From Corynebacterium sp. 122RC1 (lineage in GTDB: Bacteria > Actinomycetota > Actinomycetes > Mycobacteriales > Mycobacteriaceae), in contig NZ_JANIKD010000011.1 in assembly GCF_024580955.1 (NCBI RefSeq), forward strand, positions 1 to 64,000: a stretch of DNA of 64,000 nucleotides, in the 5' to 3' direction. Below, in pieces: positions 6,102 through 25,290 of this stretch (position 1 is the stretch's first letter; the number at the start of each line of letters is the position of its first letter). Position numbers and translations under genes: made by a program. The notes below the pieces were generated by a model. That model worked only from the letters and a program-made list of their open reading frames with translations, searched no databases and was not told where the DNA came from.

Positions 6102-7585
6102 CCAGCAGCACACTTCGCGTAGAACATTTGCGCATCCCCGACATTCTGGATGACGTCTCACTCCACATCAACGCTGGCGAGCGGGTGGGTCTGATCGGCG
6201 AGTCCGGCTCTGGCAAAACCATGACCGCGCTGTCCATTCTGCGCCTGGTGGATTCTACAGGCGAGATCCGCCTACATGAACAGGATTTGCGCGCGCTCAG
6301 TGAACGCGGCATGTGTGAGGTACGCGGCAAGAAGATCGCGATGGTCTTCCAGGAGCCGATGAGCGCCCTCGATCCTCTCATGAGGGTGGAGCGGCAGATC
6401 GCCAAAGCGCTCACGGTCCATGGTGTGCCGCGCAATGCAGCAAAGGCCCGCGTTCCAGAAATGCTCGAGCAGGTGGGGCTCACCCCGGCGCACGGTAGGC
6501 GCTTTCCCCATGAGCTCTCCGGTGGACAGCGGCAACGGGTACTCATTGCGATGGCCCTTGCCCACGAACCCGACCTGTTGATCTGCGACGAACCCACCAC
6601 CGCCCTGGACGTCACCAGCCAGCGCGCCATCGTGGAACTCATTTTGGCCCAGGTTCAATCCCGCGCCACTGCCTTGCTATTCATCACGCATGACCTCGGA
6701 CTCGTGGCGCACACGTGCCAGCGCATTGTGGTGCTGCAAGAAGGCAAGATTGTGGAATCCGGTGACACCACGAGCATCCTTGCCGCTCCTGCTCACCCGT
6801 ACACGCAGCGCCTGCTAGAGGCGTCGGAACTGCCGCATGCCCGCCTGCACACCCCGAGCCCTGAGGTGCTGGTGGAGGTGGACGCTGTATCCAAGGTGTA
6901 TCCGCATCGTTTCCGCGCCCCCACCCGCGCCGTGGATTCGCTGAGTCTGAAGGTGACGCGCGGCGAGCGTCTGGGCATCGTGGGTGGGTCCGGCAGCGGC
7001 AAAACCACGCTGCTCAAGATGATCGCTGGGCTGGAAACGCCCACTTCAGGGCGCGTTTCTGTAGCCGCCACCACGCGCATGGTGTTCCAAGACCCCAGGG
7101 GCTCACTGGATCCACGTATGAACGTGCGCTCTATCCTCCAAGAAGGCGCGGGGCCGAAGGCGGGGCAGCTTAGCGACGCGCGCCTGGCGCAGGCACTGCA
7201 CGAGGTGGGGCTGGCGGAAGACATGCTCGAACGCTTCCCACACGAGTTTTCCGGTGGTCAGCGCCAGCGCATTTCCATCGCGCGCGCATTGCTGGGAAAC
7301 CCCGACGTGCTACTGGCCGATGAGCCGGTAAGTGCGCTGGATGTGTCCGTGCGCAAGAAGGTGCTTTCCCTCATGGACAAACTCGTGGCGGAACATGGGC
7401 TGACCATGATTTTTGTGTCCCATGATCTGCATGTGGTGCGTTCGGTGTGCAGCACCGTGGCCGTGATGAACCAGGGTCAAATAGTGGAATACGGGCCCTG
7501 CGAGGAGATTTTCACCAACCCGCAAAGCCCGTACACCCGCAGCCTGATTGAGGCCGTGCCGAGGGTTCCTGAAGTCAGGCGTTAA
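6098..7585 (+). CDS. ABC importer ATPase with two fused nucleotide-binding domains (DppD-DppF type)
   Basis: Energises the importer. One 495-residue polypeptide holds both ATPase domains that are separate proteins (OppD and OppF) in many bacteria. Domain 1 has Walker A GESGSGKT at about residues 34-41, signature LSGGQRQR and Walker B LLICDEPTTALD. Domain 2 has Walker A GGSGSGKT, signature FSGGQRQR and Walker B VLLADEPVSALD. Each half ends with the oligopeptide-type C-terminal segment (AHPYTQRLLEA; QSPYTRSLIEA). The ATG at 6098 overlaps the permease stop by 4 bases. The 3' end overlaps the convergent BASS gene by 4 bases. Confidence 0.94.
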   Translation: MTSSTLRVEHLRIPDILDDVSLHINAGERVGLIGESGSGKTMTALSILRLVDSTGEIRLHEQDLRALSERGMCEVRGKKIAMVFQEPMSALDPLMRVERQIAKALTVHGVPRNAAKARVPEMLEQVGLTPAHGRRFPHELSGGQRQRVLIAMALAHEPDLLICDEPTTALDVTSQRAIVELILAQVQSRATALLFITHDLGLVAHTCQRIVVLQEGKIVESGDTTSILAAPAHPYTQRLLEASELPHARLHTPSPEVLVEVDAVSKVYPHRFRAPTRAVDSLSLKVTRGERLGIVGGSGSGKTTLLKMIAGLETPTSGRVSVAATTRMVFQDPRGSLDPRMNVRSILQEGAGPKAGQLSDARLAQALHEVGLAEDMLERFPHEFSGGQRQRISIARALLGNPDVLLADEPVSALDVSVRKKVLSLMDKLVAEHGLTMIFVSHDLHVVRSVCSTVAVMNQGQIVEYGPCEEIFTNPQSPYTRSLIEAVPRVPEVRR

Positions 7586-18539: not shown

Positions 18540-19484
18540 CTAACCAGCAAGTTGGCTAATGCGGGCCACGGCCTGCTCAATGGCGTATTCGGGGTCACCG
18601 CCTTGGCCTTTTACCGTGGCATCGAGGTCCGCCATCACGATCACCGCTTCACTCACAGCACTGCTTGACCAGCGGCGGGCAATTTTAGCGGTCTTTTCCA
18701 CCACGAAGGGCGCCATCCCCAACTGGCCAGCCAGGGCATGAGCATCCACGCGCATGGTGGAATAAAGGCGGGCGATCGCGCTGACTTTCATACTCAACGC
18801 CGCGGCAAGCGCCACCGGGGACGTCCCTAATTGCAGGGCCCTGCGGGTGCTTGCAACGGCCCGCTGGGTTTGGCCGCTGCAGGCGAGGTCCGCGATGTCA
18901 AAGCCGGAAACCTCCGCCACGCCAACGTAGTACTCACGCACGGCTGCTTCCGTAACGTTGCCGGCGTTATCCGCCACCAACTGGCTGATTGCACTGGCAA
19001 GCTCCCGGAGGTCAGAGCCCACACCCTCCAACACCGCTTGCACAACGTCCGGTGTGACGCGCACACCGTGGCGTCGGAACTCATCGGTGACCCACCGTGG
19101 ACGCTCGCTTGGCTTGAGGTTGGCTACCTCATGGACCGTGGCGATCTTGCGCAGCTTGGTTGCCAACTGCTTTTGGCGCCCACCCCCAGAGTGGGAAATG
19201 ATCAGCGTGATCCCAGGCGCGGGGTTCATAGCGGCATCGAGGATGAGCGCTGCCGGTTCTTTGCCAGCATCCTCGGTGTTGGTGAGCACCACCAGGCGGT
19301 CCTCACCAAACAAGGAAGGGCTAAACAAGTCAATGAGCTCGTGCTCAGTGACGTCCCCGGCGCGCAGGGTGGACACAACCACGTCTGGGGACTGCTCAGC
19401 GCGAACCTGCGCCACCACTGCCTCACGCGCGCGTTCGGCGAGGAACTCGTTTTCACCGACGATCAAATGAACCTGCACGCACAC
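18540..19484 (-). CDS. holA: DNA polymerase III delta subunit
   Basis: Clamp-loader delta subunit, 314 residues, which opens the beta sliding clamp. The N-terminal HLIVGENEFLAERA and the region LIDLFSPSLFGEDRLVVLTNTEDAGKE are typical of HolA; the C-terminal collar segment (LGMAPFVVEKTAKIARRWSSSAV) follows. The start is a GTG at 19482-19484 (MCVQVH); a second GTG two codons in is possible. Normally comEC lies directly upstream; here the metal island separates them. The start codon itself is inside the 23-base direct repeat that marks the island boundary. Confidence 0.95.
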   Translation of the reverse strand: MCVQVHLIVGENEFLAERAREAVVAQVRAEQSPDVVVSTLRAGDVTEHELIDLFSPSLFGEDRLVVLTNTEDAGKEPAALILDAAMNPAPGITLIISHSGGGRQKQLATKLRKIATVHEVANLKPSERPRWVTDEFRRHGVRVTPDVVQAVLEGVGSDLRELASAISQLVADNAGNVTEAAVREYYVGVAEVSGFDIADLACSGQTQRAVASTRRALQLGTSPVALAAALSMKVSAIARLYSTMRVDAHALAGQLGMAPFVVEKTAKIARRWSSSAVSEAVIVMADLDATVKGQGGDPEYAIEQAVARISQLAG

Positions 19485-19634: not shown

Positions 19635-19733
19635 GTCCACTCCTCAGGCAGCGAGTGCCAAGGGGGCGTGACTGTCGGTTGTGTCGGAGGCTTTTGTTCC
19701 TCCGCCTCCGCGGTCATTGCTCTCCGGGCTTGA

Positions 19734-19746
19734 TAGCATGGGGCTT
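19734..19746 (+). promoter_or_regulatory. -10 element of a leaderless promoter for the Crp/Fnr regulator
   Basis: TAGCAT at 19734-19739, then seven bases to the ATG at 19747. The spacing equals that at 11669-11682 and 56753-56766. Confidence 0.4.
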
Positions 19747-20487
19747 ATGGCCCGCAATCCCGTCCGCCACAACTGCGCCCAACCCCACCAGTGCTCCCTG
19801 GACGTGCGCATGCAGGTCATGGCCCGTTCCCCGCTGACCAAGATGCTGAACCCGCAACAACACAGGGAACTCGACCAGCATCTGACCTCCTGGGCCTGGG
19901 CCGCAGGTGATCCCATCCTCCTAGCCGGCGAGCAGGCCCAGGGCAGCTATATGGTCGCCGCCGGTCGGGCCCGGATCACCCGGGACACCATCGATGGCCG
20001 AGAAATCACCGTCGACATCGCCGCCCCTGGGGATGTCATCGGCCCACTGCACACCCATAGCTCCCCAGCCACCGACTCCGCCTGGGCGATTGAGACCACC
20101 TGCGCGCTCTTCCTGCCCGCCGAGGCCCTGGCCGAGGTCGTGGACGCCTACCCGCAAATGGCGTTGGCGATCATACGGATGCAGCAGGACCAATTGGTCC
20201 GGTCCCGGGAACGCGAGACCGCACAGACCACCTCGACTGTCGAGCAGCGCGTGGCCGCCACCCTCCAACACCTGGACGCCAAGCTCGGGCAAATCCGACA
20301 AGACGGATCCAGCCTGCTGCAGGTCCGCCTACGCCGCGACGACGTGGCCGGCATGGCCGGCACCACCGTCGAGTCAGCCTCCCGGGCAATGGCGCGGATG
20401 AAGAAAACCGGTGTCATTGACTCCGGCCGCGAATGGATCGCCATTACCAACCGCCAGGCCCTGGCCGACCTGGTCGCCGGCCTCTAA
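19747..20487 (+). CDS. Crp/Fnr-family regulator with N-terminal cysteines
   Basis: Cytosolic transcription factor, 246 residues. An N-terminal Cys pair (Cys10 and Cys16 in HNCAQPHQC) and a third Cys in ETTCALF recall cysteine-ligated FNR sensors, though the spacing is not that of E. coli FNR. Residues ~25-140 form the cNMP-binding-type beta roll (AQGSYMVAAGRARITRDTIDGREITVDIAAPGDVIGPL). The C-terminal part is a Crp-type winged helix with recognition segment DDVAGMAGTTVESASRAMARMKKTGVI. First gene of the island and the likely controller of the two effector genes, both preceded by FNR-like boxes. Starts at 19738 or 19681 are possible; 19747 fits a leaderless promoter. Confidence 0.87.
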   Translation: MARNPVRHNCAQPHQCSLDVRMQVMARSPLTKMLNPQQHRELDQHLTSWAWAAGDPILLAGEQAQGSYMVAAGRARITRDTIDGREITVDIAAPGDVIGPLHTHSSPATDSAWAIETTCALFLPAEALAEVVDAYPQMALAIIRMQQDQLVRSRERETAQTTSTVEQRVAATLQHLDAKLGQIRQDGSSLLQVRLRRDDVAGMAGTTVESASRAMARMKKTGVIDSGREWIAITNRQALADLVAGL

Positions 20488-20547
20488 ACGCCCACATCCC
20501 TCTCTCTTTTCCAGGACAATTTCATGGTAGGAGAGATTTTTCGTTGT

Positions 20548-20561
20548 TTGATCCAGGTCAA
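20548..20561 (+). promoter_or_regulatory. FNR-like operator upstream of the HMA gene
   Basis: TTGATCCAGGTCAA, a near-perfect dyad of the FNR type (TTGAT-N4-ATCAA). It is followed 22 bases later by TATCTT (20584-20589), a possible -10. The centre falls about 40 bases before the expected transcription start, the class II activator position. Confidence 0.72.
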
Positions 20562-20642
20562 GGAATTACCCCGGAAAGGACCGTATCTTCAAGGGTGCAA
20601 GCACAGGAACATGACGATAAAAGATGAAAGGAGCTGGTTACG

Positions 20643-20879
20643 ATGACCGCCCCGGCCACACTGAAGAACACCACCTTGCGCTCAGATGAGTTCACCTGTC
20701 CGAGCTGTGTCGCCAAGATCGAAAACAAGCTGAATGGTTTGGAGGGCGTGGAGAATGCGGAGGTGAAGTTCTCCTCCGGACGCATCCTGGTCAGCCACGA
20801 CCCACAGAAGGTCTCCGTACGTGACCTGGTCACCGCGGTAGCCGAGGTCGGTTACACCGCCAAGCCGTCGGCGATCTGA
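20643..20879 (+). CDS. Heavy-metal-associated (CopZ-like) metallochaperone
   Basis: A 78-residue soluble HMA-fold protein that binds a soft metal ion and hands it to a partner ATPase. The metal loop is FTCPSCVAKIE with Cys19 and Cys22, and the fold motif continues with GVENAEVKFSSGRILV. The ATG at 20643 follows AAGGAG. The P-type ATPase of the same island lacks an HMA domain, so this protein probably supplies that function in trans. It has its own FNR-like box. Which metal it carries is not certain. Confidence 0.9.
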   Translation: MTAPATLKNTTLRSDEFTCPSCVAKIENKLNGLEGVENAEVKFSSGRILVSHDPQKVSVRDLVTAVAEVGYTAKPSAI

Positions 20880-20946
20880 CGCACTCCCGACCCCACAAGG
20901 CCGCCACCCGATCCGGGAATGGCTGAGCACTCACACCGGCCCTCTC

Positions 20947-20982
20947 ATGGACGCCGGCTGTACCGCCAAACCCTCGGCCTAC
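20947..20982 (+). pseudogene. Relic tail of a second HMA gene
   Basis: Translation gives DAGCTAKPSA, which matches the C-terminal EVGYTAKPSA of the intact HMA protein 70 bases upstream. The surrounding frame has no metal-binding loop, so only the tail of a duplicated gene remains. Confidence 0.6.
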
Positions 20983-21042
20983 GAAACACCCCCTTATCCG
21001 AGTACCCAGGAAAGGAGCATGATCGGCACCGCGTCATCTCCA

Positions 21043-21088
21043 CGCTAGGAACCCACCAGCACCGTACGGTGCTGGTGGGTTCCTAGCG
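21043..21088. repeat. 46-base perfect palindrome
   Basis: Arms of 23 bases (21043-21065 and 21066-21088) are perfectly complementary with no loop, centred on CCGTACGG. There is no U-tract. It lies in the 359-base gap between the HMA gene and the ATPase gene. It may be a terminator, a recombination or protein-binding site, or an element end. Confidence 0.9.
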
Positions 21089-21149
21089 TCGACAGGCCAA
21101 GTGGCATGTTCTTCTGCTCTACCTCGTCAGGTCGGAGATCTGTGCGTGA

Positions 21150-21163
21150 TTGATCCAGGTCAA
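21150..21163 (+). promoter_or_regulatory. FNR-like operator upstream of the P-type ATPase gene
   Basis: The same TTGATCCAGGTCAA as at 20548, followed by AGGAAG and, 21 bases after the box, TTAACT (21185-21190) as a possible -10. The geometry matches the HMA promoter. Confidence 0.72.
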
Positions 21164-21238
21164 GGAAGTTTCTCCGGAATCGTCTTAACTTCATGAGTGT
21201 CAAAGGAAAAAGAACCTCAAAGGTAAAGGAGACCCATC

Positions 21239-23116
21239 ATGAAGACCTGGAAAACCTGGGGCGTGGTCGCCGTCTCAGGACTGTTGATTATCCTGTCCTG
21301 GCTCACCCCCGTTGGGTGGCTGTCAGACGGATTCATGATCGCCGCCGCGGTGGTCGCCGGCTGGCAGATCGCCGTCTCCGCCGTCCAGGCCCTGCACATT
21401 AGGATGATCTCGATTGACCTGCTGGTCATCGTCGCCGCCATCGGCGCGCTGTTCATCAACAACTACTGGGAATCCGCCGCCGTCACCTTCCTCTTCGCCC
21501 TGGGCAAGACCCTGGAGAAGGCCACGATGAACCGCACCCGCAAGGCACTGTCGGACCTTGTGGACGCTGCCCCCGAGACCGCCACCGTGCTGCGCGACGG
21601 TGAGCCCGAAACCGTTGAGATCTGGGAACTGGCCCCCGGTGACGTCGTGCTCGTGAAGAACGGCGAGCAGATCCCCGTCGATGGACGCGTGCTCTCCGGT
21701 CACGGCGGTGTCGACGAGGCCACTATCACCGGGGAATCCGTACCCGCCGAGAAGGCCGAGGGCTCGGAGGTTTTCGCCGGTACTTGGCTGCGCTCCGGGG
21801 TGCTGCGCATCGAGGCGATTGGCATCGGCTCGGACTCCACACTGGCCAAGATCATCCACCGCGTGGAAGACGCCCAGGACGATAAGGCCAAGACCCAGAC
21901 GTTCCTGGAAAAATTCTCGAAATACTACACCCCCGGTGTGATGGTCGCCGCCCTCGCCGTTGGCCTGATCACCCTCAATGTGGAACTGGCCTTGACCCTG
22001 CTGGTCATCGCCTGCCCCGGGGCACTGGTCATCTCCATCCCGGTCTCGATTGTCGCCGGTATCGGACGCTCCGCTAAGGACGGGGTGCTCATCAAGGGTG
22101 GCGAATACCTGGAGACCTCCGCGAAGGTCGACACCGTGGTCGTCGACAAGACCGGCACCCTGACCAACGGCCGCCCCGAGCTGACCAACGTCGACGTCCT
22201 CGACCCGGCCTACTCGGACGATGAGGTGCTCACCCTGGCCGCCCGTGCCGAAACAGCCTCCGAGCACCCCCTGGCCAATGCGATCATCCGCGGCGCGGAG
22301 AACAAGGGACTGACCATCGAAATGGTCGAGAAGGCCAAACCGGTCACCGGCAAGGGCATCATCGCAAAGGTCGACGACCATACCGTCGCCGTCGGTTCCG
22401 CCGACCTGCTCGACCACGCCCTGGATACCACCCGCATCCTTGAACTCAATGACCAGGGCAAGACCGCCATGTACGTCGGTGTCGACGGACGCGCCATCGG
22501 CATCGTCGCCGTGGCCGACACCATCCGTGACGACGCACCGGCCGCTATCCAATCGCTGCATGACAAGGGTGTGCGCGTGATCATGGCCACCGGTGACGCG
22601 AAGCGGGTGGCCCGCAACGTCGCCGCCGAACTCGGGGTCGACGAGGTCCGGGCCGAACTCATGCCCGAGGACAAGCTCACTATCGTCAAGGACCTGCAGG
22701 CCCAGGGCCGCACCGTGGCCATGATTGGCGACGGTGTCAACGACACCCCGGCACTCGCTCAGGCCGACATCGGCGTGGCGATGGGGGCTGCTGGCTCACC
22801 TGCCGCCATCGAGACAGCCGACATCGCCCTGATGGCCGACAAGCTCCCCCGCCTGCCGTACGCCCTGGGTCTGGCCCAGCGCACGGTACGCACCATGCGG
22901 GTCAATATCGCCATTGCCCTAGCCACCGTGGCGATCCTGTTGGCCGGTGTGCTGCTCGGTGGGGTGACCATGTCGATTGGCATGCTCGTCCACGAAGCTA
23001 GCGTCCTGATCGTCATCGCGATCGCCATGCTGCTGCTGCGCCCCACCCTGAAGGAGGACAAGGACAAGGCAGACGTCAGTACTGCTGACGCCGCGAAGGA
23101 GACGCTGAGCGCCTAA
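21239..23116 (+). CDS. Heavy-metal P1B-type ATPase with a CPG membrane motif
   Basis: ATP-driven metal exporter in the inner membrane, 625 residues. TGES lies at 164-167 (actuator domain), DKTGT at 303-307 (phosphorylated Asp303), SEHP at 341-344, and GDGVND at 497-502. The membrane motif is Cys-Pro-Gly at 259-261 (IACPGALVI) where Cu, Zn and Cd pumps have CPC. The last helices carry HEAS (585-588), reminiscent of the HEGxx motif of P1B-4 pumps. No N-terminal HMA domain is present; the separate HMA protein upstream may replace it. RBS AAAGGAG precedes the ATG at 21239. Substrate uncertain. Confidence 0.93.
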   Translation: MKTWKTWGVVAVSGLLIILSWLTPVGWLSDGFMIAAAVVAGWQIAVSAVQALHIRMISIDLLVIVAAIGALFINNYWESAAVTFLFALGKTLEKATMNRTRKALSDLVDAAPETATVLRDGEPETVEIWELAPGDVVLVKNGEQIPVDGRVLSGHGGVDEATITGESVPAEKAEGSEVFAGTWLRSGVLRIEAIGIGSDSTLAKIIHRVEDAQDDKAKTQTFLEKFSKYYTPGVMVAALAVGLITLNVELALTLLVIACPGALVISIPVSIVAGIGRSAKDGVLIKGGEYLETSAKVDTVVVDKTGTLTNGRPELTNVDVLDPAYSDDEVLTLAARAETASEHPLANAIIRGAENKGLTIEMVEKAKPVTGKGIIAKVDDHTVAVGSADLLDHALDTTRILELNDQGKTAMYVGVDGRAIGIVAVADTIRDDAPAAIQSLHDKGVRVIMATGDAKRVARNVAAELGVDEVRAELMPEDKLTIVKDLQAQGRTVAMIGDGVNDTPALAQADIGVAMGAAGSPAAIETADIALMADKLPRLPYALGLAQRTVRTMRVNIAIALATVAILLAGVLLGGVTMSIGMLVHEASVLIVIAIAMLLLRPTLKEDKDKADVSTADAAKETLSA

Positions 23117-23135
23117 CAACACATTCGCCACAGCC

Positions 23136-23177
23136 AGCCCCGCCGGTTTTCCTCCAGGTCTTCCCGGTGGGGCTTTC
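23136..23177 (+). terminator. Probable terminator of the P-type ATPase gene
   Basis: Stem AGCCCCGCCGG (23136-23146) with CCGGTGGGGCT (23164-23174), followed by a short TT-containing tail. Lies 20 bases after the stop. Confidence 0.65.
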
Positions 23178-23207
23178 GCTGTGCACCAGATCCCCGATCT
23201 CATGTAG

Positions 23208-23230
23208 CTGCACGCACACTATCGTGCCAC
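23208..23230. repeat. Island-flanking direct repeat, right copy
   Basis: Identical to 19473-19495. On the minus strand it reads GTGTGCGTGCAG, the first codons of holA, and similarity to holA continues weakly to about 23192. It is therefore a holA 5' relic beside the intact comEC. Confidence 0.92.
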
Positions 23231-23264: not shown

Positions 23265-24638
23265 CTACCCCGCGCCCATGCCTATCCAAAGCATCACCAC
23301 TACCAACCCAACACTGAACCAGCCCAGACCCGCCAACTTGGCGCGGGCGAGGAGGTAGAACGTCCAACAACACCCGAGGGCCACCCACGCCACGGGCGCG
23401 GTTTCTGGCACATCAACCACCGCCCCCGGGATCTGCGCCCCGATGCGCGCCACCTGCCCGATCCACCACGCGGCAGGCTGAGCCAATGCCAACGGCACCC
23501 ACTCCAGCCCAAAGGGCAGCACGCCGAGAATCGCAGCCACCAGACCGAGGACGGTAATCAGTGGCACCACCGGCGCGGCCAGGAGGTTTGCCCCTACCGC
23601 CGCGAGGGAGAGTTGCCCCGACATTGCGGCAAGAAGCGGTGCCGTGGAAAGTTGTGCGGCGAGTGTCACCGCAATTGCCCTGCTGCCCACCTCCGGGATC
23701 TTCGGGTGCATGAAAAACCCGGCGAGGATCGGGCTCAATGCCACGATTCCCGCGGTTGCTGCGGCTGAGAGCGCAAAGCCGTAAGACGTTGCCATCTGCG
23801 GTTGCAACACCATCATGGCGATCACCGCGATACACAGCGCATGCATCGGCGGGGTGCGGGTATTCGCGAGCACCGCCACCAATCCCACGCTTCCCATGAT
23901 CCCCGCGCGCAGCACTGAGGGCTCGGGCCCCACTACCAGCACATACATGCCGAGCGTCAGCAGCGCGCACATGGTCTGCCACCGCGGAGGCGCGCGAAGC
24001 AGCGCGGCAAGCACCACCACGCAACCGGCCACAATGGCAACGTTGCCACCGGACACCGCGCTCAAGTGTGCCAGCCCCGTGTCCAGGTACCACTGCTGTT
24101 CCTCGGCGGTTTGAAGGGAAGTATCACCCAAGGTCATCGCCGGTATCAGCCCGCGCGCCGGAGAATCGAGCAGCCCCAGCGCACTGTGGTGGAACTCCGC
24201 GCGGATCTCCGCGGCAAGGGCGTAGGGGGTGTTCCAGATGCTGTGCAACTCAATTGGCTCAATGCGCCGTGCCCGGAACCACTCCAGGGTGCCGCTGCCC
24301 TCAACGCGCAGCATCTGACCGAACTCCACATCCAGTTCCGCCCCTTCGGGGAGTTGCACACGCGCCCCACCAACCTGAATCCACTTCTCCCTGAGTGCAT
24401 ACACCCGGCCCTCCACCACGTCACGCTGCAGCGCCGCCCGCTGCGCGTATAACACCCCTTGTGCTTGAGCACTCAGGCCCCACGCCGCGGTGAAAATGCC
24501 TTGAGCCGGTGACTTCACCGCAAGCACCACCCCCACCGCCGCGCTGAACAGCAACACCCACCACTGCCCCAGGTGCACCGCCAGGAACGTGCCGCACCAA
24601 CAGCACAGCGCCGCGGGGAGCAAACGCAGTTCACTCAC
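23265..24638 (-). CDS. comEC: ComEC/Rec2-type DNA-uptake channel protein
   Basis: Polytopic membrane protein proposed to form the DNA channel in natural transformation; 457 residues. The Competence domain is recognised by GLAHLSAVSGGNVAIVAG (a conserved ComEC motif), PSVLRAGIMGSVGLVAVLANTRT and ATSYGFALSAAATAGIVALSP. There is no C-terminal metallo-beta-lactamase domain, so it is shorter than the full-length type. The GTG at 24636-24638 (MSELRLLP) lies 13 bases past the comEA stop, within a 17-base tandem duplication. holA normally follows directly but is separated here by the island. Confidence 0.9.
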   Translation of the reverse strand: MSELRLLPAALCCWCGTFLAVHLGQWWVLLFSAAVGVVLAVKSPAQGIFTAAWGLSAQAQGVLYAQRAALQRDVVEGRVYALREKWIQVGGARVQLPEGAELDVEFGQMLRVEGSGTLEWFRARRIEPIELHSIWNTPYALAAEIRAEFHHSALGLLDSPARGLIPAMTLGDTSLQTAEEQQWYLDTGLAHLSAVSGGNVAIVAGCVVVLAALLRAPPRWQTMCALLTLGMYVLVVGPEPSVLRAGIMGSVGLVAVLANTRTPPMHALCIAVIAMMVLQPQMATSYGFALSAAATAGIVALSPILAGFFMHPKIPEVGSRAIAVTLAAQLSTAPLLAAMSGQLSLAAVGANLLAAPVVPLITVLGLVAAILGVLPFGLEWVPLALAQPAAWWIGQVARIGAQIPGAVVDVPETAPVAWVALGCCWTFYLLARAKLAGLGWFSVGLVVVMLWIGMGAG

Positions 24639-24667
24639 AACCGCACCTCGCTCACAACCGCACCTCG
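24634..24667. repeat. 17-base tandem duplication at the comEA-comEC junction
   Basis: Bases 24634-24650 repeat exactly at 24651-24667. The unit contains both the comEA stop and the comEC start region. The ancestral arrangement was probably a GTGA overlap of the two genes. Confidence 0.85.
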
Positions 24668-25290
24668 GCGGCGATGGCGGCGAACTTCGCCGGGCCAATC
24701 CCCTTGACTTCCTGGAGCTGCTCTATCGACTGAAACGCCCCAATCTGATCGCGGTAATCCACAATCGCCTGTGCCGTCTTCTGCCCCACCCCAGGCAGGG
24801 TCATCAGCTCCTCCACCGAGGCCTGATTCAATGACACCCCCTCCCCCATCCACGTCCCCGAACTCGAACCCGAACTCGAACTCGGCTCCGCAACGCCACC
24901 GGCGCCCGGGTCGGGAATGATGATCTGGGTGGCGTCGGCAAGCAGTTGCGCATGGTTGAGCCCCATGGTGTCCCCGGTGGGGACAGCGGCACTGAGGGCG
25001 TCTGCAATGCGCGCACCTGGCGCGAAGGTATAGAGCCCGGGCCGCTCCACGGCACCTTGAATGGAAACCACCAGTTCACTGGGTGTTGCGGCTGCCACCG
25101 GTGCGGTGCTGGGTTGGTGGATTGGCGGCGGCGGGTCGGGTTGCTTGAACCACAACAATGCACACACGGCCGCTGCTAAAGCCGCACCGGCAACCCCCTG
25201 ACGTGCGGAAATGCCGAACCTGTGCGTGGGGAGGGCCACCTTGAGTTCGTTGGTGGCAACGGATTCTAAACGTGAAATTGCGTGTCCCAT
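24652..25290 (-). CDS. comEA: ComEA-type DNA-binding protein
   Basis: Membrane-anchored DNA receptor for transformation, 212 residues. One TM segment (AGAALAAAVCALLWF) is followed by a proline-rich linker, an SLBB domain (ELVVSIQGAVERPGLYTFAPGARIADAL), a serine-rich linker and a C-terminal helix-hairpin-helix pair (SVEELMTLPGVGQKTAQAIVDYR...LQEVKGIGPAKFAAIAAEV). The ATG at 25288-25290 is the best candidate though its RBS is weak. First gene of a comEA-comEC pair. Confidence 0.9.
   Translation of the reverse strand: MGHAISRLESVATNELKVALPTHRFGISARQGVAGAALAAAVCALLWFKQPDPPPPIHQPSTAPVAAATPSELVVSIQGAVERPGLYTFAPGARIADALSAAVPTGDTMGLNHAQLLADATQIIIPDPGAGGVAEPSSSSGSSSGTWMGEGVSLNQASVEELMTLPGVGQKTAQAIVDYRDQIGAFQSIEQLQEVKGIGPAKFAAIAAEVRL

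Follow-up and report, generated by a model that had tools for sequence, protein, structure and literature searches.

P1B ATPases are sorted into subgroups by the motifs of transmembrane helices TM4 and TM6, and the same motifs are used for metal-resistance prediction. The question raised by the pump gene described here is what to make of a TM4 motif that reads Cys-Pro-Gly (CPG) where Cys-Pro-Cys (CPC) is expected. The gene lies in a 64,000-nucleotide stretch of Corynebacterium sp. 122RC1 (hereafter the window; Table 1). A first-pass annotation had read from the DNA that the TM4 motif holds a single Cys, that the late helix carries HEAS and that the catalytic motifs are intact, and all three observations hold: C259 is the sole Cys in the whole protein, HEAS occupies H585–S588 (22991–23002) and is preceded by G581-M582, and TGES (164–167), DKTGT (303–307), SEHP (341–344) and GDGVND (497–502) are unbroken. 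Membership of the P1B family is beyond doubt, the pump combining TGES, DKTGT and GDGxxND with the HP motif (SEHP) and scoring 568 bits against TIGR01525 (cut-off 346). It also scores 496 bits against the NCBIfam cadmium family TIGR01512 (cut-off 313), which favours one explanation, an ordinary Zn/Cd/Pb pump of ZntA/CadA type in which the change from CPC to CPG is a tolerated substitution. The pump has no N-terminal metal-binding domain. Elsewhere in the host genome (2.4 Mb, 85 contigs) there are two further matches to the E1-E2 ATPase family, one of them a CopA-type CPC pump.

Table 1 Features of the pump locus (positions of the window).
Feature	Position	Strand	Basis
Crp/Fnr-family regulator	19747–20487	+	Pfam HTH_Crp_2 and cNMP_binding
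FNR-type palindrome TTGATCCAGGTCAA upstream of HMA gene	20548–20561		Pattern search
Stand-alone HMA metal-binding protein, 78 aa, CPSC	20643–20879	+	Pfam HMA, 1.1e-12
Deletion junction	20886–20905		blastn and junction comparison with near-identical modules
Second, identical TTGATCCAGGTCAA upstream of ATPase	21150–21163		Pattern search
P1B ATPase of CPG group, 625 aa	21239–23116	+	Pfam/NCBIfam, AlphaFold2 model
CPG motif of TM4, C259-P260-G261	22013–22021	+	Codons TGC CCC GGG, within LLVIACPGALVISIPVS
TM6 motif G581-M-L-V-H585-E586-A-S588	22979–23002	+	CPG-group conservation
I595 and L598 (N and R in 90/97 CPG proteins)	23021–23032	+	Alignment

Reviews list subgroups P1B-1 to P1B-7 (PMC7558416), and the suspicion that CPG together with HEAS fits none of the main ones was confirmed by their defining features and by the tree described below; as the first-pass annotation had proposed, substrate or stoichiometry may differ as well. 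The marks of the Cu+/Ag+ pumps of P1B-1 (CPC or CPH in TM4, YN in TM5, MxxSS in TM6, a place in the Cu clade) are all missing. P1B-2 pumps (Zn/Cd/Pb; ZntA, CadA) combine CPC in TM4 with a TM5 Lys and a TM6 Asp; at these positions the window pump has G261, V564 and H585. This holds for the group at large, CPG proteins having Val in TM5 and His in TM6 against Lys and Asp in the P1B-2 rows and YN-type TM5 residues in the Cu row, with no Cu-type M-xx-SS in TM6. CPG pumps share with P1B-2 the first Cys of CPC, the TM4 context CPxALVIS-P and a sister side of the tree, but they lack the second Cys, the TM5 Lys, the TM6 Asp and the N-terminal HMA domain. The TPC motif and C-terminal hemerythrin domain of P1B-5 (Nia, a reference in our tree) are not present either. 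P1B-7 is defined by CSC in TM4, where the window pump has CPG; one Methanoculleus genome (G282, L194) encodes a P1B ATPase that combines a TM4 CSC with an HMA domain at its C terminus and is probably of the poorly known P1B-7 type. P1B-4 (Co/Fe/Zn) depends on SPC in TM4 and on the His in HEGGT(x)5N (PMC10800456); the window pump has no SPC and keeps HE, with V589 in place of the Thr and I595 in place of the Asn. That Asn is common to all reference pumps and kept in most of the CPG group, and its loss belongs to the corynebacterial branch of the window pump, in which two otherwise near-universal TM6 residues are replaced (N595 by I, R598 by L). P1B-6 has a conserved HN motif in TM6 (PMC9374683), and membership of that subgroup is ruled out by the HE or HQ found in 97 of 97 CPG proteins.

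CPG marks out a widespread group and is neither a mutation of a textbook pump nor a peculiarity of the window gene. Species genomes were scanned for the coding pattern CPGALVI-xx-P-[VIM]-[SA], which gave at least 119 stretches from many phyla; the matches listed include Actinomycetota, lactobacilli, bacilli, clostridia, spirochaetes, Chloroflexi, Synergistetes, Bacteroidales, Fusobacteria, Acholeplasma, Methanoculleus, Paracoccaceae and others, and haloarchaeal plasmids also bear CPG pumps. Throughout an alignment of 97 non-redundant CPG proteins, M582, H585 and S588 were invariant (97/97) and position 586 was E in 93 and Q in 4. Because these proteins had been picked by their TM4 motif, we searched independently with the TM6 signature GMxxH[E/Q]xS alone, and all nine matches, from actinobacteria and other phyla, read CPG in TM4: the two motifs go together. 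The recurrence of these TM4 and TM6 motifs in different phyla shows that the CPG reading is not a product of chance or sequencing error.

The first-pass annotation had proposed a P1B tree with CPG members as a check. We built a maximum-likelihood tree from 67 P1B proteins. Its 41 CPG rows all fell into one clade (support 100/99), whose sister group united P1B-2 (ZntA) with P1B-4 (SPC pumps including sCoaT, only four SPC rows being sampled). The Cu pumps (CPC, CPH) stood apart, and Nia (TPC) fell outside the group of CPG, P1B-2 and P1B-4. Because of long branches, the unity of the clade is firmer than its exact sister relation. With a separate and well-supported clade, the different TM5 and TM6 residues, and a partner and regulation of its own (below), an ordinary Zn/Cd/Pb pump with a tolerated substitution seems quite improbable, its cadmium-family score notwithstanding. 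Novelty had been made to depend on whether CPG members belong to a known, characterised clade. A clade they do form, but the searchable open literature yielded no mention of the CPG motif and no characterised member, and we regard the clade as a real, apparently uncharacterised P1B subgroup; it may already bear some label in the primary survey of Smith et al. 2014. Its members carry no annotation beyond 'heavy metal translocating P-type ATPase', and plasmid copies owe names such as zntA to similarity alone.

An AlphaFold2 model of the window pump, built with 62 CPG sequences, reached a mean pLDDT of 90.5 and a pTM of 0.85. Its best solved VIA match was the P1B-4 pump sCoaT (7qbz; Z 39.5, 576 residues aligned, rmsd 11.6, a value that probably reflects domain motion), followed by Cu pumps and ZntA. 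As sCoaT is also the closest solved structure by sequence, the earlier impression of a P1B-4-like TM6 was well founded. Further likenesses to P1B-4 (sCoaT, PfeT, FrvA, CtpD) are the lack of an N-terminal metal-binding domain, a length of about 620–680 aa, HE and S in the last helix and a TM5 without Lys. The likeness in TM6 and the match to sCoaT favour an alternative in which CPG pumps export Fe2+ (or Co2+/Mn2+) in a P1B-4-like manner, as part of a response to the stress that oxygen or NO puts on iron-sulfur clusters. The TM sites themselves speak against it, as P1B-4 keeps a Cys after the Pro where CPG has Gly, and the Thr of HEGGT is V or I. CPG pumps also differ from P1B-4 in an extra invariant Met, a separate clade, an HMA partner and an FNR-type box.

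The pump does not stand alone. Upstream are genes for a small HMA protein and a Crp/Fnr-family regulator, the latter in an open reading frame that opens at GTG 19681; its homologues begin with MARNP, corresponding to 19747, a start also annotated in pCmarinum1 and likely the true one. The regulator has an N-terminal C-x5-C and an FNR-type recognition helix, TTVESASR, and the N-terminal Cys and E-xx-S-R were invariant in five aligned regulator rows. Of the 61 CPG loci with enough flanking DNA, 51 encode on the same strand, no more than 1 kb from the pump, an HMA protein that nearly always has CPSC; a Crp/Fnr regulator lies near the pump in about half of loci. The box TTGAYN4RTCAA, which the FNR-type E-xx-S-R helix fits, occurred upstream of the pump, or of a preceding HMA or RIC-like gene, in 62 of 84 deduplicated loci (shuffled control: mean 0.4, maximum 2 in 100) and upstream of none of 22 non-CPG P1B genes. 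In the 64-kb window TTGA-N6-TCAA occurs at two sites only, before the HMA gene and before the pump, and a pattern search of the whole genome found seven TTGAYN4RTCAA sites and no further copy of the window's box; so few sites suggest a local regulator whose regulon is very small. The motif is shared by a whole group and accompanied by an HMA partner, a Crp/Fnr regulator and an FNR-type box, which the first-pass annotation had missed. A Roseicitreum plasmid copy of the pump has no box. On LZ227p2, a plasmid of L. plantarum, 3.6 kb separates the HMA gene from the CPG gene on the opposite strand, and each has its own box.

Two known systems resemble this module. FlpA and FlpB are FNR-like Crp/Fnr regulators with an N-terminal Cys, a feature shared with the CPG module, and the FLP operons of Lactococcus and Lactobacillus are reportedly linked to zinc (Scott et al. 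2000). In CopZ/CopA copper pairs a small HMA protein gene likewise adjoins a P1B pump gene, but the CPG module differs in its CPSC motif and in a pump that falls outside the Cu clade. A stretch of 9 kb on LZ227p2 holds the CPG pump together with two Crp/Fnr genes (L205:4404-4964, 6126-6791), HMA plus Dps genes, and genes for a thioredoxin and a metal-sensitive repressor; it is a candidate metal/redox island.

In the window the module is an insertion. The genes comEC (23265–24698, minus strand) and holA (18540–19484, minus strand) are adjacent on one strand in ten module-free relatives, and here a block at 19661–23213 sits between them. Its DNA is 94–97% identical to copies on pCmarinum1, a C. 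glutamicum plasmid and several Corynebacterium genomes, which suggests recent transfer, and a close homologue is present in 51 of 242 Corynebacterium genomes. In near-identical modules (compared at L132:7842-8668) the pump is set off from the HMA gene by extra DNA that contains a 105-aa ORF; this segment, bounded by imperfect short repeats, has been lost from the window. The lost ORF contains His and corresponds to WP_011015536 in L133. The missing segment, and the replacement of N595 and R598 in the corynebacterial branch, would fit a degenerate pump with no transport activity in this genome. We consider this very improbable indeed, given the open frame, the intact catalytic motifs, the conserved TM site and the near-identical copies on several replicons.

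Beyond the regulator and HMA protein, the neighbours of CPG pumps single out no one metal. A ~100-aa relative of RIC, a protein of FeS repair, matches the C-terminal half of RIC (TIGR03652, below cut-off) and was found at 23 loci, in clostridia, spirochaetes, Fusobacteria, streptococci, lactobacilli and Methanoculleus, its gene often sitting between the box and the pump (for example L114:4960-5274), and a Dps-like ferritin at 11, mainly in lactic acid bacteria. Both neighbours, with the FNR-type box and the putative oxygen response of one regulator (see below), favour Fe2+ efflux. The RIC and Dps link is, however, missing from actinobacterial loci, and a CxxC HMA partner would be unusual for Fe2+; we regard the iron alternative as doubtful. 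Some actinobacterial loci encode a cupin and an NADPH:quinone reductase-like protein, CopB-type pumps lie near a few CPG loci, and CueP is encoded on pCmarinum1. There was no support for the 105-aa corynebacterial ORF as a RIC-like homologue, and a search against an anti-phage defence library gave no match.

Copper has its own case, in which the HMA protein would act as a chaperone for Cu, like CopZ, and the CPG pump would serve as an additional exporter of Cu+. The HMA protein is most similar to the domains of ATP7B and B. subtilis CopA/CopZ and matches the NCBIfam CopZ models, below cut-off. CopB-like ATPases lie near several loci, the CueP gene shares pCmarinum1 with the module, and a single Cys is enough in CPH-type Cu pumps. 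The genome that we take to be C. glutamicum ATCC 13032, from its cop cluster and argS-lysA context, has two CPG pump copies, one of them about 8 kb from copRS/copO/copB. The CopB gene there, cg3281, is not itself a CPG gene, encoding a His-rich CPH pump on the other strand. Among the C. glutamicum genes induced at least 3-fold at 20 uM Cu, the CPG ATPase and HMA genes are absent while the neighbouring cg3281-cg3289 are present (PMC3140484), a mild argument against copper. It is weakened by the Crp regulator beside the second CPG copy, which is truncated to 157 aa (L163:10997-11467), at a locus with three boxes, for the HMA gene, the 105-aa ORF and the pump. Since the pump also falls outside the Cu clade and lacks the Cu-type TM5 and TM6 residues, we regard copper efflux as unlikely.

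The reading that we prefer, with about an even chance of being correct, is that CPG pumps are a distinct P1B efflux subgroup working in a dedicated regulator–HMA module, with a divalent metal rather than Cu+ as cargo. This reading is favoured by a clade sister to P1B-2 plus P1B-4 and away from the Cu pumps, by the coupling of TM4 and TM6, by V564, by the lack of Cu-type M-xx-SS, by the frequent HMA partner, the group-specific box, the fitting recognition helix and the separately boxed genes of LZ227p2, and by the absence of the C. glutamicum genes from the Cu-induced set. Counting against this explanation are the closeness of the HMA protein to copper-type domains among solved structures, the CopB-type genes near some modules, the missing TM6 Asn of the window pump and the boxless Roseicitreum copy, and the RIC-like and Dps neighbours in anaerobes hint at iron/redox stress instead. 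Under this efflux model, the regulator, which has N-terminal cysteines, would bind the two boxes and turn on both the HMA and ATPase genes. The CPSC HMA protein would bind metal in the cytosol and deliver it to the pump, or buffer it, taking the place of the pump's missing N-terminal metal domain (N-terminal HMA fusions of CPG pumps were looked for and none was found). The pump would then run the usual P-type cycle with phosphorylation of D303, moving the ion by way of a site formed by the lone C259 of TM4 together with H585, E586 and probably S588/M582 of TM6, a ligand set that we infer from conservation. As cargo, a divalent transition metal such as P1B-2 and P1B-4 pumps carry is the most likely, and with low certainty we rank Zn2+ or Cd2+ first, Fe2+ or Co2+ second and copper third. 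A broader role shared by the group in bacteria and haloarchaea, namely to expel metal that damage to iron-sulfur or zinc-thiolate sites releases under oxygen, NO or disulfide stress, is a speculative idea and probably wrong; in it, an FNR-type regulator that senses redox state or metal would switch on the pump, which would work with a carrier of HMA type and, in anaerobes, also with the FeS-repair-like protein.

The natural C-P-G site offers a test of how many thiolates a P1B pump needs, and the two copies in C. glutamicum ATCC 13032, a laboratory strain that is safe to handle, make the substrate question directly testable. At its cg1327-cg1328 locus the same Crp-HMA-CPG module is found, with two boxes and an ATPase 78% identical to that of the window. 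PMC7764795 lists cg1328 as a putative heavy-metal P-type ATPase, and PMC6027265 places cg1327 among putatively oxygen-responsive regulators, its regulon being reported as uncharacterised in 2021 (PMC8303971); an open-literature search for these C. glutamicum pumps found no report of a substrate. The candidate box for the Crp protein cg1327 is TTGATCTAGGTCAA.
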